Below are positions 2,303 to 8,725 of a DNA stretch of 64,000 bases, in pieces (positions within the stretch are counted from its first letter, which is position 1; the number at the start of each line of letters is the position of its first letter). The notes beneath the pieces are model-generated. The model saw only the letters and a list, made by a program, of their open reading frames with translations, had not been told where the DNA came from and did not search any database. This stretch comes from Halogranum rubrum (GTDB lineage: Archaea > Halobacteriota > Halobacteria > Halobacteriales > Haloferacaceae): contig NZ_FOTC01000002.1 of the NCBI RefSeq assembly GCF_900114455.1, forward strand, positions 1 through 64,000, given 5' to 3'. The position numbers and the translations under genes are program-made.

Positions 2303-5155
2303 TTACTCGGTTTCGTCGTCGGGACGCTCTTCGTCGTCTCCTTCGACCAACTCCGAGAGGATGGCTCTGTGGGCTGCTCGGAGATGCTGATGGTAGGTCG
2401 GTGCCGAGATACCCAGTGACTCCGCGACGTCCTCGCCCGTACTCTCACGAGGCCACGAGTAGAACCCCGAGTGATACGCGGCCTGTACGGCCGAGCGTTG
2501 CTTGTCGGTGAGGTTCTCGTCGAAGACGTTTCTTACCTCGGGGTCGGAACGAGTGGTTTCGCGCCGGGCGGTGAACTCAGTGTTGGCGTAACGGGCGTTG
2601 ATTGCGTCGACGACGGTGCGGACGTCCGACTGTGGTCCGATGGTGGTTGTGAGTCGTGTCGTCCCCTGTTCGGACACGGCGGTCGTGATCTTGGCATCCT
2701 GTTCGGCCAGCGTCCGACCGATGGACTTCCCGGTGATGCTGATCTCGAACACGCACTCGTCGTCCGAGTCTTCCGAGACGAGACGTGCTCCGTTCACGGC
2801 GTCCATCCGGTCGAACACCGCGCGTACGTCGTCTACAGCGCCGGTTTCGACTGTGACGTAGTAGACGAAGTCGCCGTCCCGATTACGAACGGTATCGTTG
2901 AGACGGACAGTACAGTCGAGCTCCGCCGATACGGTGTTGAAGAAGAACGTCGGGTCGGCGCTCGAGAACTCCAGTTCGACGACGGTGTCTGCGAAGAGTC
3001 GCTGTTTCGTCTCGACGCCGTTTATCGCGTGTCCGATGACCTCGCCGAGTCGTCTGACGACGGTTCGTTCCTGGGTGTGACAGGGGTTCGTCCGTGTCGT
3101 ATAGAGGGTCAACACACCGTACGATGTCTCTTCGTACCCGATCGGAACCATCACCGCCGACCGGTCGCCGTGGTCTCGGGCTTGTGTCAGCCACGCGGCC
3201 GACTCGTCGCTCTCGTCGCTCTCGTCGATTTCTCGAACGACCTGTACCGCACCCGTTCGAATCGCTCGCATCGCCGCTTCCGATTCGAGTGCCGTTACGG
3301 TGTGAGAGTCTTCGAACGTTCCGTGCTTGGTGACGCTCGCTCGCAGTGTCCCCGTCCCGTCTTCGGGAGCGACTTCGCCGATAGAGGCGGCGGTGTAGAG
3401 GTCGGACCCGACGAGTGCCTCACAGACTGCTCGTTCGATTCCCTCGCGGTCGCCCCGCGCTATCAACGTCTGTGTGATGTCTTGGACGAGAGTGCTGAGG
3501 TCGTTCAGCGTTCGCAGGCGCTCGTTCGACCGTTCGAGTCGTGCAGCCGTCTCTTCGAGTTGTCCTTCGGTCCGCTTGCGCTCCGTGATGTCGGTGAGCG
3601 CTCCCGAGAACCGAACCGGCTCACCGTCGTCGTACTCGACTTCGCCTCGGGCGAGTACCCACCGAATCGCTCCTTCGCTATTGTAGACGCGGTACTCCGT
3701 CTCGAACTCGTTACCGGTGTCGAGTGCCCGTTGGATGGCAGTCGCTGTCCGGTCACGGTCGTCTTCGTGGATGGACTGCAGAAACGTCTCGAGGGAGATT
3801 CCTTCTTGAGCCAACTCCGGTTCGATGCCGAAGAGGTCCGCCAGCGCGGCGTCCCCCACTACGTCGTTCTCGGTGACGTCCCACACCCACGTTCCGACCG
3901 ACCCGACGGTCATCGCGGCTTCGAGTCGTTCTTCGGTCTCCCGGAGCGCCTGCTCTCGCTGTTTGCGTTCGCTGACGTCGTAGTAGAGTTCGAGTCGACC
4001 GCCAGCGTACTCGCCGGACTGAATCGGCTGACTCCGGTGTTCGAGAAAGCGTTCGGCACGGCCCGATTTCGGGAGGACGCGAACTTCGAACTCGTCGTCG
4101 GCCGACGTGTCGTCCTCGCTCGCGGCGGCGACGCCTTCGGCGAACGCCGCCGGGTCGGCGACCTGCGGTTTGAGTGATTCGTCGACCAGTTCGTCCATAC
4201 TACGGCCCTCGACCGGCGTCTCTTCGAGTCCGAAGTACCGTTCCGTCGTCCGGTTGGTCCACGCGACTCTGCCCGACGAGTCGACGATGAAGACCCCGAC
4301 GTCGGACTCGCCGAAGACGTCTTCGACGACCGACCGGTAGTAGTCGACCAACTCTCGTTGCCGCTTCTGTTCTGTAACGTCTCTGACCGTGCAGATGAGC
4401 CCGTCGTCTGCCGTCTTCGACAGCGAGTGCTGTTCGTCGAACGTCGTCCCGTCTGCGCGTAAGCCGGTGGTCTCACCCGACCAGTAACCGCCTTCGTCGA
4501 CGGACGGCAGAATCTCGTCGGCGACGCGGTCGACTTCGTCGTCTGGATAGATCGCTCGCCAGTGTAGTCCGAGCATCTCCTCTGGGTCGTACGCGTAGAG
4601 GTCGGCGTACGCTTGGTTGACGTACTCGAACGTACCGTCCTCGTCGAGCAGTGCGATACCTTCCTGTGTCGTCTCTAGTGCGTGATAGATGCGGTGGAGT
4701 TTCTCGTGTCGACCACTTTCCTGACCGTCGACGACCGAGCGGATTCGATGGACGAGAAGTGCCGTCTCGTCGCTGTGTGAGAGGTGAACGACGTCTGCAG
4801 CACCCGCCGAGAGTGCTTCGTCCGCGAGTCCCTCTCGTATCTCGTCGGTCACGAGGACGAACGGCAGTCCTGGATACTCGCGACTGACGTCGGCGAGCAC
4901 GCCCAACCCGTCGCCCTCTGAGAGTCGATACTCGCTGACGAGACAGTCGACGTCGAGTTCGCCGAGACGGTCGAGTACCTCGTCGGAACCGACTGTGTAG
5001 ACGTCGAGTCGGTCCGACGCCCCGAGTGCCGACGGAATCTCCTGTTCGCTCGCTTCGTCGGTGACGAACAGGACTCGAACCAAGGTGTGTTCGTTGTCCG
5101 CTCGACTCCCCTCGACAGAGCCTGAGTGGTCCCGTAACTCCTGTTCGTCGGCCAT
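2303..5155 (-). CDS. Bat-type multi-sensor transcriptional regulator (receiver-PAS-PAS-PAS-GAF-HTH_10)
   Basis: A soluble 950-residue regulator. Order: receiver-like domain (about 25-145), three PAS/PAC modules (about 155-265, 275-405 and 415-545), a GAF domain (about 570-725), a Bat linker and a C-terminal HTH_10 (about 890-940, containing DKQRSAVQAAYHSGF and GISAPTYHQHLRAA). Bacterio-opsin-activator proteins of this type bind DNA and respond to light, redox or small ligands. In the receiver the usual phospho-acceptor Asp is Glu (about residue 75, in CLVSEYRL) and the conserved Lys is not evident, so control by phosphorelay is unlikely. ATG 5155 is chosen over GTG 5167 because a TATA box lies 25 nt upstream of it. 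Confidence 0.9.
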   Translation of the reverse strand: MADEQELRDHSGSVEGSRADNEHTLVRVLFVTDEASEQEIPSALGASDRLDVYTVGSDEVLDRLGELDVDCLVSEYRLSEGDGLGVLADVSREYPGLPFVLVTDEIREGLADEALSAGAADVVHLSHSDETALLVHRIRSVVDGQESGRHEKLHRIYHALETTQEGIALLDEDGTFEYVNQAYADLYAYDPEEMLGLHWRAIYPDDEVDRVADEILPSVDEGGYWSGETTGLRADGTTFDEQHSLSKTADDGLICTVRDVTEQKRQRELVDYYRSVVEDVFGESDVGVFIVDSSGRVAWTNRTTERYFGLEETPVEGRSMDELVDESLKPQVADPAAFAEGVAAASEDDTSADDEFEVRVLPKSGRAERFLEHRSQPIQSGEYAGGRLELYYDVSERKQREQALRETEERLEAAMTVGSVGTWVWDVTENDVVGDAALADLFGIEPELAQEGISLETFLQSIHEDDRDRTATAIQRALDTGNEFETEYRVYNSEGAIRWVLARGEVEYDDGEPVRFSGALTDITERKRTEGQLEETAARLERSNERLRTLNDLSTLVQDITQTLIARGDREGIERAVCEALVGSDLYTAASIGEVAPEDGTGTLRASVTKHGTFEDSHTVTALESEAAMRAIRTGAVQVVREIDESDESDESAAWLTQARDHGDRSAVMVPIGYEETSYGVLTLYTTRTNPCHTQERTVVRRLGEVIGHAINGVETKQRLFADTVVELEFSSADPTFFFNTVSAELDCTVRLNDTVRNRDGDFVYYVTVETGAVDDVRAVFDRMDAVNGARLVSEDSDDECVFEISITGKSIGRTLAEQDAKITTAVSEQGTTRLTTTIGPQSDVRTVVDAINARYANTEFTARRETTRSDPEVRNVFDENLTDKQRSAVQAAYHSGFYSWPRESTGEDVAESLGISAPTYHQHLRAAHRAILSELVEGDDEERPDDETE

Positions 5156-5176
5156 ATCACCACACACCTACGGAGA

Positions 5177-5334: not shown

Positions 5335-5352
5335 CGTCGCCGTGTGGCGACG
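5335..5352 (-). terminator. cspA: Hairpin terminator after cspA copy 1
   Basis: CGTCGCC and GGCGACG form a perfect 7-bp stem around a 4-nt loop, 13 nt beyond the cspA stop. On the transcribed strand a T-rich CGTTTTCTTCG follows. The same stem, loop and T-rich block occur after cspA copy 2, which supports a real terminator. Confidence 0.65.
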
Positions 5353-5365
5353 AAAGAACTGCTAG

Positions 5366-5560
5366 TTACTGACGGACGACGTTCGTCGCGCGCGGGCCCT
5401 TCGGGGCCTGTTCGATGTCGAATTCGACCTCGGTCCCCTCGGTGAGGTCCTCGCCGCCAACGTCTTCCATGTGGAAGAACACGTCGTCGTCTGCGTCGTC
5501 AGTCGAGATGAAACCGTAGCCGCCTGTGTCGTTGAAGAAATCAACCTTACCGTTTGCCAT
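5366..5560 (-). CDS. cspA: Cold-shock domain protein CspA, copy 1
   Basis: A 64-residue single cold-shock domain. RNP1-like GGYGFIS and RNP2-like DVFFHMEDV are present, and the protein ends in the usual GPRATNVV. Such proteins bind single-stranded RNA or DNA and act as RNA chaperones. ATG 5560 gives the family's normal length; an in-frame extension upstream is non-conserved and AT-rich. It differs from the protein at 8147-8341 at only two positions (V/I in TEVEFD and the last residue Q/N). Its promoter is probably the TTAA at 5589-5592, about 30 nt upstream of the start. Confidence 0.95.
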   Translation of the reverse strand: MANGKVDFFNDTGGYGFISTDDADDDVFFHMEDVGGEDLTEGTEVEFDIEQAPKGPRATNVVRQ

Positions 5561-5744
5561 TGCAACTATACACAGACCGACGGCACGGTTAAGGGTTCTG
5601 TATTCGTCCGCGAATTCCATATTTTAGTTTACAAATGAGGTCACAAACGACTTATGAGTGCTTATTTGTCTATTTCTTTGGTTCTGTTCGACTTTGGTGC
5701 CTAGTTCGAAACAACGACTCCGTACTTCCGTGGTATCGGCAGTT
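5561..5744 (-). promoter_or_regulatory. Conserved upstream region of cspA copy 1
   Basis: Four blocks are shared with cspA copy 2 at exactly the same distances from the ATG: CACGGTTAAGGGTTCTG at 5584-5600 (contains the TATA-like TTAA), TTAGTTTACAAA at 5624-5635, ATTTGTCTAT at 5664-5673, and a 34-nt block at 5711-5744 with one mismatch (includes CTTCCGTGGTATCGGCAGTT). Bases between blocks are diverged, so the blocks look selected. The distal block lies about 120 bp beyond the likely TATA box, far for a haloarchaeal operator. Confidence 0.6.
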
Positions 5745-5790
5745 CATCCTTCGTGTAACTCGTGAACACGCCTCTCTGTCCGTATCGAAA

Positions 5791-7665
5791 TCACGGCACA
5801 CGGACGCCCCAGAAGAACGCGATTCCGAGGACGGTGACGACCGAGAGCAACAACTGCAGCGGTGCGCCGACGCGGAGGAAGTCCGAGAACGTGTACCCAC
5901 CCGGCCCGTAGACGAAGAGGTTCGTCTGGTAGCCGACGGGCGTCATGAACGCCGTCGAGGCGGCGAAGGTCACGGCTAAGACGAACGCGAACGCGTTCGC
6001 GCCGATGGACTGTGCGGCACTCGCCGCGACGGGAATCATCAACACGACGCTCGCGTTGTTGCTGATGACGCTTGTCAAGAGACCAGTCGCCATGTAGAAG
6101 ACCCACAGCACGCCGATGGCTGGGAGGACCGTCGACGTGGCGGCGACGGCGTCTCCGAGGAGCGACGCGGCCCCGGTCTCTTGGAGCGCCGTCCCGAGTG
6201 GGATGACTCCTGCGAGGAGGAAGATAACGTTCCACTCGACAGATTTGTAGAGTTCGTTCGGTTTGAGGACGCCGGTCCCAATCATCGCCACCACACCGGC
6301 GAGTGAGGAGACGACGATAGGATAGATGTTCAGTGCCGGAAGTGCGATGACGCCGGCGATGATTGCGACGGCGAACGGAATCTTCTCGGTCCGGTAGTCC
6401 ACGTCGTCGAACTCGTGGGCGACGATGAAGTCCTCGTTCTGTACGAGGCGAGTGAGACTGTCTGGTGGTGCCTGAACGAGCACCGTGTCACCGACGCGAA
6501 TCCGGATGTCTTCGAACCTGTCTCGGACGACTTCGCCACGGGTCCGGAAGGCGAGAACGTTCGCGTCGTAGCGCTGACGGAACGTCGAACTGGCGAGCGT
6601 CTCGCCGACGAGAAAGGACCCCGACGGGATGACGACTTCGACGAGTACCGGTTCTTCCTCGTCCGGATGGAGGTCAGTTTCCGACTGAGGCCCGCCGAGG
6701 AAGGTGAGTCCCTCGGCGTCCATGATCTGTTCGAGCGTCTGTCGGTTCGTCCGTACCCGGAGCGTATCGTTCTCGTGAATCTCTTTCCGTGCAAGCGGTT
6801 CGGAGAAGCGCTCACCGTACCGAATCAGCTGTAACACGTCGATGTCGAGGGTGTCGTCTCCTAACGCCTCGCCGACCGTCTGGCCGATGAGCGACGAACT
6901 CGCCGGGACGACGACGTCGGCGAGATACTCCTGCAGGGCGTACTCTTCGACCAAGTCGTCCTCGACGGGGACGCGTTCGGGGAGCAGGCGCACGCCTACA
7001 GTCATGAGGTAGAGCGCACCGACCACGAAGACGATGACACCGAGTTGGGTGAACTCGAACATCCCGAACGCGTGCAACCCGAGTTCGGGCGACTCTTCGC
7101 CGAGTTGGGCGGAGATGTCGCTGGCGAGGATGTTCGTGGACGTGCCGATGAGCGTGAGCATCCCGCCGAACATCGACGCGAACGAGAGCGGCATCAGCAG
7201 TTTCGACGGCGACGTCTTCCCCTCGTGGGCGAGGTCAGCAATCACGGGGACGAGAATCGCGACGACCGGCGTGTTGTTGATGACGCCCGAGATAGGGCCG
7301 GTGATGCCGATGGTCGCCGCAAGCTGTTTCCGGCGGTCGGTCCCCGCGAACGCGGCCATCTTCTTCCCGAGTTTCTGGACGATTCCGGTTCGATTGATGC
7401 CCGTACTCAGGATGAGCATGGCGAGGACGGTTATCGTCGCAGGACTGGCGAACCCCGAGATTCCCTCACGAGGGGTGATCTGGGTCCACGGTTCGAGTAC
7501 CATCAGGAGAACCATCACCAGGATTGCAGTGACGTCGATGGGGAGCCACTCGGTCGCAAACAAGACGAGTGCGAGGAGAATGAGCGCGAAGACGACGAGC
7601 ATGTCCACTGTTACCGACGTCGATGCCACACCCTGTACTGTCAGGGTGGGCACGAAGAAAGACAT
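5791..7665 (-). CDS. SLC13-family permease with two TrkA-C (RCK_C) domains
   Basis: A 624-residue membrane transporter. The N-terminal membrane block (about 1-235) starts with LFATEWLPIDVTAILVM and has SNTPVVA-type turns (GVINNTPVVAIL) typical of the ion-transporter (DASS/ArsB-like) superfamily. Residues about 245-330 and 345-415 are two soluble TrkA-C ligand-binding domains (for example SLIGQTVGEAL and SFLVGETLASS). A second membrane block (about 430-624) contains SVISNNASVVLMIPVA. By family knowledge these carry dicarboxylates, sulfate or other anions, coupled to sodium or protons; the substrate cannot be told here. It lies between the two cspA units, transcribed in the same direction. Confidence 0.85.
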   Translation of the reverse strand: MSFFVPTLTVQGVASTSVTVDMLVVFALILLALVLFATEWLPIDVTAILVMVLLMVLEPWTQITPREGISGFASPATITVLAMLILSTGINRTGIVQKLGKKMAAFAGTDRRKQLAATIGITGPISGVINNTPVVAILVPVIADLAHEGKTSPSKLLMPLSFASMFGGMLTLIGTSTNILASDISAQLGEESPELGLHAFGMFEFTQLGVIVFVVGALYLMTVGVRLLPERVPVEDDLVEEYALQEYLADVVVPASSSLIGQTVGEALGDDTLDIDVLQLIRYGERFSEPLARKEIHENDTLRVRTNRQTLEQIMDAEGLTFLGGPQSETDLHPDEEEPVLVEVVIPSGSFLVGETLASSTFRQRYDANVLAFRTRGEVVRDRFEDIRIRVGDTVLVQAPPDSLTRLVQNEDFIVAHEFDDVDYRTEKIPFAVAIIAGVIALPALNIYPIVVSSLAGVVAMIGTGVLKPNELYKSVEWNVIFLLAGVIPLGTALQETGAASLLGDAVAATSTVLPAIGVLWVFYMATGLLTSVISNNASVVLMIPVAASAAQSIGANAFAFVLAVTFAASTAFMTPVGYQTNLFVYGPGGYTFSDFLRVGAPLQLLLSVVTVLGIAFFWGVRVP

Positions 7666-7762
7666 ACCCGAAGGATAGCCCCAACGAGTGAAAAGCGCTG
7701 GTATCTGGGCCCCAGTCGTCTACTGAGTGACACCGGACGAACACAAGCGCCTCCCTATCTAC

Positions 7763-7984
7763 TCAGTCCTCTTCGTACGTTATCGTCAACGTTCCCGAAG
7801 CAGAATGCGCCGCCGCATCTCGGAGGGCTCGGAACTCGTCGAGCACTCGGTTCGCGTCGTCTGTTCCATCTCGGACCTGTTGTGACTCTTCTCGTATGGT
7901 GTCGTACACCCGGTCTAAGAGCCGTCTCACGGCGTCCGAATCCGTCTGCGAGTCGATTTCGAAGGTCGCTACGTGTCGTCGCAT
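7763..7984 (-). CDS. Small acidic conserved-type protein, unknown function
   Basis: From the ATG at 7984 the product is 73 residues (MRRHVATFEIDS... ending TITYEED). The middle is a charged amphipathic helix region (SDAVRRLLDRVYDTIREES) followed by a second helix (DEFRALRDAAAHS). No catalytic motif or metal-binding cysteine is visible. An upstream in-frame ATG at 8020 would add 12 residues with a poor match to haloarchaeal composition. It is oriented with the transporter downstream and cspA copy 2 upstream. Probably a haloarchaeal hypothetical protein. Confidence 0.55.
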   Translation of the reverse strand: MRRHVATFEIDSQTDSDAVRRLLDRVYDTIREESQQVRDGTDDANRVLDEFRALRDAAAHSASGTLTITYEED

Positions 7985-8117
7985 ACGGTTGATTCGGTCT
8001 CCACCGGGATAACACAGCACACGTCAGAGACGGCTCTCTGTTCGTCTACTTCGTCTGGGCTGTCGAGCACTGATGCGTCTCAACGACTATCTGACCGAAG
8101 AAAACGCAAGTACGCTA

Positions 8118-8135
8118 CGTCGCCGTGTGGCGACG
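8118..8135 (-). terminator. cspA: Hairpin terminator after cspA copy 2
   Basis: It has the same 7-bp CGTCGCC/GGCGACG stem and 4-nt loop as at 5335-5352, 11 nt beyond the stop codon. It is followed on the transcribed strand by a GCGTTTTCTTCG T-rich stretch. Conservation in both duplicates supports function. Confidence 0.65.
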
Positions 8136-8146
8136 AAATAACGCTA

Positions 8147-8341
8147 TTAGTTGCGAACGACGTTCGTCGCGCGCGGGCCCTTGGGAGCCTGTTCGATGTC
8201 GAACTCGATCTCGGTTCCCTCGGTGAGGTCCTCGCCGCCAACGTCTTCCATGTGGAAGAACACGTCGTCGTCTGCGTCGTCCGTCGAGATGAAACCGTAG
8301 CCGCCTGTGTCGTTGAAGAAATCAACTTTACCGTTTGCCAT
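8147..8341 (-). CDS. cspA: Cold-shock domain protein CspA, copy 2
   Basis: A 64-residue cold-shock domain protein, 62 of 64 residues identical to copy 1, with GGYGFIS and DVFFHMEDV RNA-binding motifs. It is a predicted cytoplasmic RNA chaperone. The start at ATG 8341 parallels copy 1. The duplicated unit runs from the terminator hairpin to the distal upstream block (about 408 nt here against 410 nt in copy 1), so whole expression units were copied, not just the coding region. Both genes are intact and probably both expressed. Confidence 0.95.
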   Translation of the reverse strand: MANGKVDFFNDTGGYGFISTDDADDDVFFHMEDVGGEDLTEGTEIEFDIEQAPKGPRATNVVRN

Positions 8342-8525
8342 TACAGATAGATACAGACTGACCACACGGTTAAGGGTTCTGAATCTGTCCGGAAATGCCC
8401 CGGATTAGTTGACAAAAGCCTTTGTAGATGGGTACTCGGTGGTCATTTGTCTATCACGTCGGTTCTGGACGGAGACCGTGCTCGGTTCGGAACAACGACC
8501 CCGTACTTCCGTGGTATCGGCAGTT
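8342..8525 (-). promoter_or_regulatory. Conserved upstream region of cspA copy 2 and its non-coding flank
   Basis: The blocks match copy 1 at identical offsets from the ATG: CACGGTTAAGGGTTCTG at 8365-8381, TTAGTTGACAAA at 8405-8416, ATTTGTCTAT at 8445-8454, and the 34-nt block at 8492-8525. The remaining gap up to the aldolase start (8526-8725) shows only a TTTATG at 8685-8690 that may be the aldolase TATA box; no other structure was seen there. Confidence 0.6.
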
Positions 8526-8725
8526 CTGACCGCAAGTCGGTCACGACGCGGCCGGTCGGTTTACTCGAATCGACACTCTCGACGCCGTCGGCTACACGGA
8601 CTGACAGATGCCTCGCCGGACAAACCGCCGAAACTCGCCGAACAGTTCCACGTCACTACACGAGACGCGAACCCGTACTGTGACTTTATGCTCCCCACAC
8701 TCGACACAGTAGTCGGTGGAGTAGT

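Follow-up and report, generated by a model that had tools for sequence, protein, structure and literature searches.

A conserved multi-box upstream module, probably a cis-regulatory DNA element, in one class of haloarchaeal csp genes

Regulation of archaeal transcription has mostly been described in terms of one or two sites located beside the BRE/TATA elements. In the upstream activating sequences of haloarchaea, such as those of bop and gvp, the activator site is short, promoter-proximal and located directly above the BRE. The archaeal Lrp proteins bind semipalindromic sites at two- or three-turn spacing, or stretches of more than 100 bp, with wrapping of the DNA (PMC2995911; BarR, PMC10201364). 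For the csp genes of haloarchaea, a rise in the cold was reported in Halobacterium NRC-1 (cspD1, 2.3-fold; cspD2, 3.1-fold) (PMC1971269), and deletion of cspD1 in Halobacterium NRC-1 leads to sensitivity to paraquat (PMC5605881). The csp upstream module described herein is far longer than the one or two sites of most archaeal promoters, and no earlier description of it was found in the open-access literature searched, subscription papers lying outside that search.

The window analysed, a stretch of 64,000 nt from Halogranum rubrum (contig NZ_FOTC01000002.1, positions 1 to 64,000), carries two csp genes, csp1 (5366..5560) and csp2 (8147..8341), on the minus strand, on which all features of the window given below are also located. 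Each encodes a 64-aa cold-shock domain protein (Pfam CSD PF00313, E=1e-19 for csp1 and 9e-19 for csp2; 70.6 and 67.5 bits, both over the Pfam cut-off of 27). Between csp1 and csp2 there are 11 nucleotide differences in 192 nt of coding sequence and 2 residue differences in 64, in agreement with the 62 of 64 identical residues counted in an initial sequence-only reading of this locus. Within the genus, the csp coding sequences show just 5-16 differences in 192 nt, with upstream regions 53-69% identical, and the small number of synonymous differences may reflect either codon constraint or gene conversion. In the genus-mate H. amylolyticum CGMCC 1.10121, a transporter gene and one csp gene lie in synteny with csp1 but csp2 is lacking at that place, owing either to its gain in the host or to its loss in H. 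amylolyticum. Judged from this synteny and from the overall upstream identity of 69% between the two copies, the csp1/csp2 pair is more than a simple recent duplication. On the 3' side of csp1 lies the gene for a PAS/GAF/BAT/HTH_10 regulator (window 2303-5167, minus strand), which elsewhere is unlinked to csp.

The upstream blocks of csp1 and csp2 are in register at a constant offset of 2781 nt, confirming the equal distances from both start codons that the initial reading had pointed out. The two copies match at 34 of 35 positions in the segment from -185 to -151, at 21 of 35 from -150 to -116, at 9 of 20 from -100 to -81 and at 18 of 21 from -45 to -25, and the match drops to 15/34 and 9/40 past -186. 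The distal block with its single mismatch and the divergence between blocks had thus been correctly described. Two occurrences of the 26-nt core were counted in the window, with 0 expected from shuffles, and the whole host genome likewise has two when up to 3 mismatches are allowed. The near-identity over 35 nt is peculiar to the csp1/csp2 pair, H. amylolyticum keeping only about the first 20 nt near-identical, and the class-wide consensus of the distal block is degenerate.

No match to the exact 26-mer was detected in other genomes among the GTDB contigs searched, and conservation appeared only with a degenerate search. The exact search is misleading when taken alone as a test of conservation, as tolerant comparison does find the block, in the form GAACTG.GGATACC.CGGAAG...TCGTTGTG, at -182 to -187 of many haloarchaeal csp genes. 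By an iterated profile (>40 bits), the module class includes 78 of 159 haloarchaeal csp upstream regions, which is not an unbiased fraction because the set was collected by similarity to csp1, and close relatives are over-represented in it. The module is about 185 bp in length, with a sharp outer edge at -186 from the ATG. In ATG-anchored ungapped profiles, the information of the module genes exceeds background from -190 to -50; that of the other csp genes is about 0.05 bit past about -70, with no distal conservation. A sequence-only model, designated R1, was built with both window copies in its training set, and under strict filters it detected the module in 167 of 391 Halobacteria genomes, representing 8 families and 52 of the 86 haloarchaeal genera in the sample (about 60%). 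The block is therefore not limited to a recent duplication, and the search upstream of csp in other haloarchaea that the initial reading had proposed reveals it, in degenerate form, in many genera. When loci beyond the first-look set were sampled, 18 of 18 directly adjoined a csp ATG, most of them belonging to other families and about three to the family of the window. With R1, no sequence of the host genome other than the csp1 and csp2 copies scored above noise, the next having an E value of about 0.1.

The module consists of the boxes E1 to E6 together with the core promoter, and extends in csp1 from -1 to -185 (5561..5745; R1 106.6 bits, E=2e-30) and in csp2 over the corresponding region (8342..8526; 98.6 bits, E=6.5e-28), both scores being those of training-set copies. 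In the consensus, the boxes are located at -186 (E1), -157 (E2), about -127 (E3), -112 (E4), -83 (E5) and -47 (E6, continuing into BRE/TATA). E1, which in csp1 reads GAACTGCCGATACCACGGAA (5726..5745; in csp2, 8507..8526), has the class consensus gAActg.gGat.C..cgGaA, and E2 (5697..5717 and 8478..8498) the consensus tcgttgtG.CGaa.c.g.cac. The weaker E3, agAAccga (5673..5687 and 8454..8468), lies within a stretch of variable length and is followed by E4, ATAGACAAAT in csp1 (5656..5672; in csp2, 8437..8453), with the consensus tGG.CaAAt.tccAC. E5 (5630..5642 and 8411..8423; consensus ggAtaTTcGT) is an inverted relative of E4, and E6 with the BRE/TATA, ACGAATACAGAACCCTTAACC in csp1 (5586..5607; in csp2, 8367..8388), includes the TATA-like CTTAACC at -33..-27.

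The spacing is near-fixed between E1 and E2 (29 bp in 50/51), between E4 and E5 (29 in 37/42) and between E5 and E6 (36 in 38/45), while that between E2 and E4 ranges from 44 to 47. By these box spacings the module is composed of two rigid halves and a slightly variable connecting stretch. The spacing scan was window-restricted and used matrices from the same alignment, and an independent test was provided by a cross-family held-out scan, in which matrices trained on the family of the window were run against positions -300 to -60 upstream of 70 csp genes from other families, regardless of class; the families of named loci were assigned from genus names, leaning towards exclusion. The best match lay no more than 4 nt from the expected position for E1 in 37 of the 70 regions (3 in shuffled sequences), for E2 in 27 (2 shuffled), for E4 in 28 (2 shuffled) and for E5 in 20 (5 shuffled). 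A palindromic tendency was detected for E2 (p=0.001) and for E4, E5 and E1 (p 0.013-0.028), the values being uncorrected for seven tests. Similarity from box to box was significant only for E4 and E5, as inverted copies, and hence a single motif common to all boxes was dropped as a candidate, and two or more different proteins may take part. The steps between box centres are about 30.5, 39, 31 and 29-30 bp by our own estimates from the palindrome axes, not by tool output; the gap of about 39 bp, between E2 and E4, varies by a few bp and does not correspond to an integral number of helical turns.

Except for csp, one other target of the module was found. In the host a copy lies at G000:C6:933031-933188 (L263:5032-5189; R1 E=0.11), and in H. 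amylolyticum (G001) at C24:66884-67067 (L261:2385-2568; E=1.5e-9), both preceding a conserved small-protein operon that encodes a 66-aa Cys-rich protein and then a protein of 81/93 aa, with no Pfam family for these small proteins. The host E1 at this locus is identical to the csp E1 at 19 of 20 positions, and the distance from E1 to TATA is 150 nt in the host and 154 nt in H. amylolyticum, compared with 153 nt in csp1 and csp2. Since the host E value by itself is at chance level, it is the matching G001 locus and the TATA spacing that point to reuse of the distal part of the module for one non-csp target in two Halogranum genomes. A relic of a csp gene was considered at this locus and rejected, as no csp remnant is detectable there.

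A second class of csp promoters, present in many haloarchaea, carries the palindrome CGTGGTACCACGAC at about -57, just above BRE/TATA (e.g. L145 and L176; host copy, G000:C6:1025612-1025625). This class is like the module class in gene family and core promoter layout, but has a single palindrome beside the BRE and no distal conservation. Similarity between E1 and the second-class palindrome is not significant. One convincing case of a promoter combining both classes was found (G002:C2:646208-646400; L262:2209-2401), in which the distal boxes are present and the second-class palindrome replaces E6; with this case alone, hybrid promoters were rejected as a recurring type. On the basis of the module, the csp paralogues fall into promoter classes for which different regulation is to be expected.

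Both csp genes of the window are followed on the 3' side of the stop codon by the hairpin CGTCGCC-ACAC-GGCGACG (5335..5352 for csp1 and 8118..8135 for csp2) and then by a T-rich stretch; the initial reading had described one hairpin common to both units, as a terminator. Its offset is 2783 nt, against 2781 nt upstream, so that the hairpin is shifted by 2 nt relative to the upstream blocks. Among 156 csp genes from all promoter classes, 92 have a perfect stem of 6 bp or more, most often GTCGCC/GGCGAC, against 1 among shuffled sequences; stems were counted if starting within 22 nt of the stop, and nearly all start at 9-16 nt. By these counts, the stem-loop belongs to the 3'-UTR of csp genes in general and is not confined to the module class. 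It may be a putative terminator, stabiliser or processing mark; in H. volcanii, RNA processing sites are densest around the stop of cspA4 (PMC8303175).

As to the nature of the upstream region, the initial reading had named three options, a site for a regulator, a small RNA and a leader element. A 5' leader RNA starting near -185 and acting as a cold thermosensor, as in E. coli cspA, would be in keeping with the length and the sharp 5' edge of the region and with weak matches to the Rfam cspA thermoregulator (RF01766), but these matches (27.8 and 23.9 bits) are far under the gathering cut-off of 78 and fall largely on the coding sequence and the 3' side, not on the upstream module. Moreover, RNAalifold gave 0 consensus pairs and no covariation (69 or 40 sequences, with both strands in one run and the sense strand in the other), and for both copies in the window the predicted folding was no more stable than in shuffles (z 0.04 and -1.06). 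No conserved promoter signal was seen upstream of -186 in the class consensus or profiles, and the position of the TATA-like CTTAACC predicts that transcription begins a few nt ahead of the ATG and gives a near-leaderless csp mRNA, with which the 5-nt 5'UTR of H. salinarum cspA1 determined by dRNA-seq (PMC8303175) would be in line by analogy. A leader RNA is, on this evidence, highly improbable. Length and conservation would also permit a small RNA, either separate or divergent, or else a small peptide, which we regard as quite unlikely given the near-constant distance to the csp TATA, the reverse-strand consensus without a conserved TATA and the lack of covariation, and, for the peptide, length changes of 1-3 nt. 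Duplication or gene conversion alone, with no function past the core promoter, would account for a distal match of the pair greater than relatives retain and for csp1 and csp2 coding sequences that are unusually alike too; the recurrence of the boxes at equal distances across many genera and families contradicts this explanation, which is almost certainly wrong. With no RNA fold, no conserved promoter signal above -186, a TATA near the ATG and an RF01766 score below the cut-off, an array of DNA operators is the best reading. Among the options offered initially, the regulator site, in the form of an array, is thus the one supported, by the near-fixed distance in many genera, the four palindromic-tending boxes and the reuse before a non-csp operon, while the small RNA and the leader are not supported.

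The blocks are thus probably parts of one cis-regulatory DNA module of about 185 bp, a multi-box operator or enhancer of this csp paralogue class. In the proposed mechanism, the canonical BRE/TATA promoter would yield a csp mRNA nearly without leader, and the boxes E6 (adjoining the BRE), E5, E4, E2 and E1 would be stacked upstream of it to an outer edge at about -186, their centres lying 29-31 bp apart, or about three helical turns, except for the one longer gap. These boxes would be occupied, for the most part along a single face of the DNA, by one or several regulators that are sequence-specific and probably dimeric and that would act jointly on the basal promoter, probably as activators under stress. 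Stress signals are suggested by the rise of csp genes in the cold together with the paraquat sensitivity of the cspD1 deletion. No gene apart from csp itself recurs among the neighbours of csp as a candidate regulator, and identification of the regulator through linkage was dropped for this reason.

A specific form of the multi-box operator would be an Lrp/AsnC-type octamer, or a row of dimers, bound to boxes three turns apart and wrapping about 150 bp of DNA upstream of csp. The known site spacing and wrapping of archaeal Lrp (PMC2995911, PMC10201364) and our estimated centre steps favour this form, and by analogy Lrp-type regulators may serve as the closest working model for the module. It is nevertheless rather unlikely, because the boxes share no single significant motif beyond E4-E5, csp has no linked Lrp gene, haloarchaea have many Lrp proteins, and the single 39-bp gap does not fit whole turns of the helix. 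Put forward tentatively, and somewhat less likely than not, is a class-wide archaeal enhancer, in which a new regulator would form a nucleoprotein array of about 150 bp and near-fixed geometry, spanning about 14 helical turns, and would thereby control csp and a few other operons. If so, the enhancer array would act further upstream than in the usual view of archaeal promoters. The multi-box module as such could offer a clean handle on a new stress regulator in tractable organisms.

Compared with the systems described so far, the module resembles the E. coli cspA leader (RF01766) in that conservation extends far upstream of a gene for a cold-shock protein; the E. coli leader is, however, a transcribed and structured RNA, in contrast to a haloarchaeal module in which no fold was found and an mRNA predicted to be near-leaderless. 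The operators of Ss-LrpB and BarR include several degenerate semipalindromic sites with about three-turn spacing over 100 bp or more beside the promoter, which the boxes of the module may resemble in their palindromic tendency and estimated centre steps, but the haloarchaeal module differs from these in its target gene, in its near-fixed distance from csp class-wide and in boxes that are not clearly one motif. The upstream activating sequences of bop and gvp resemble E6 in their place next to the BRE, whereas the csp module extends 150 bp above the TATA.
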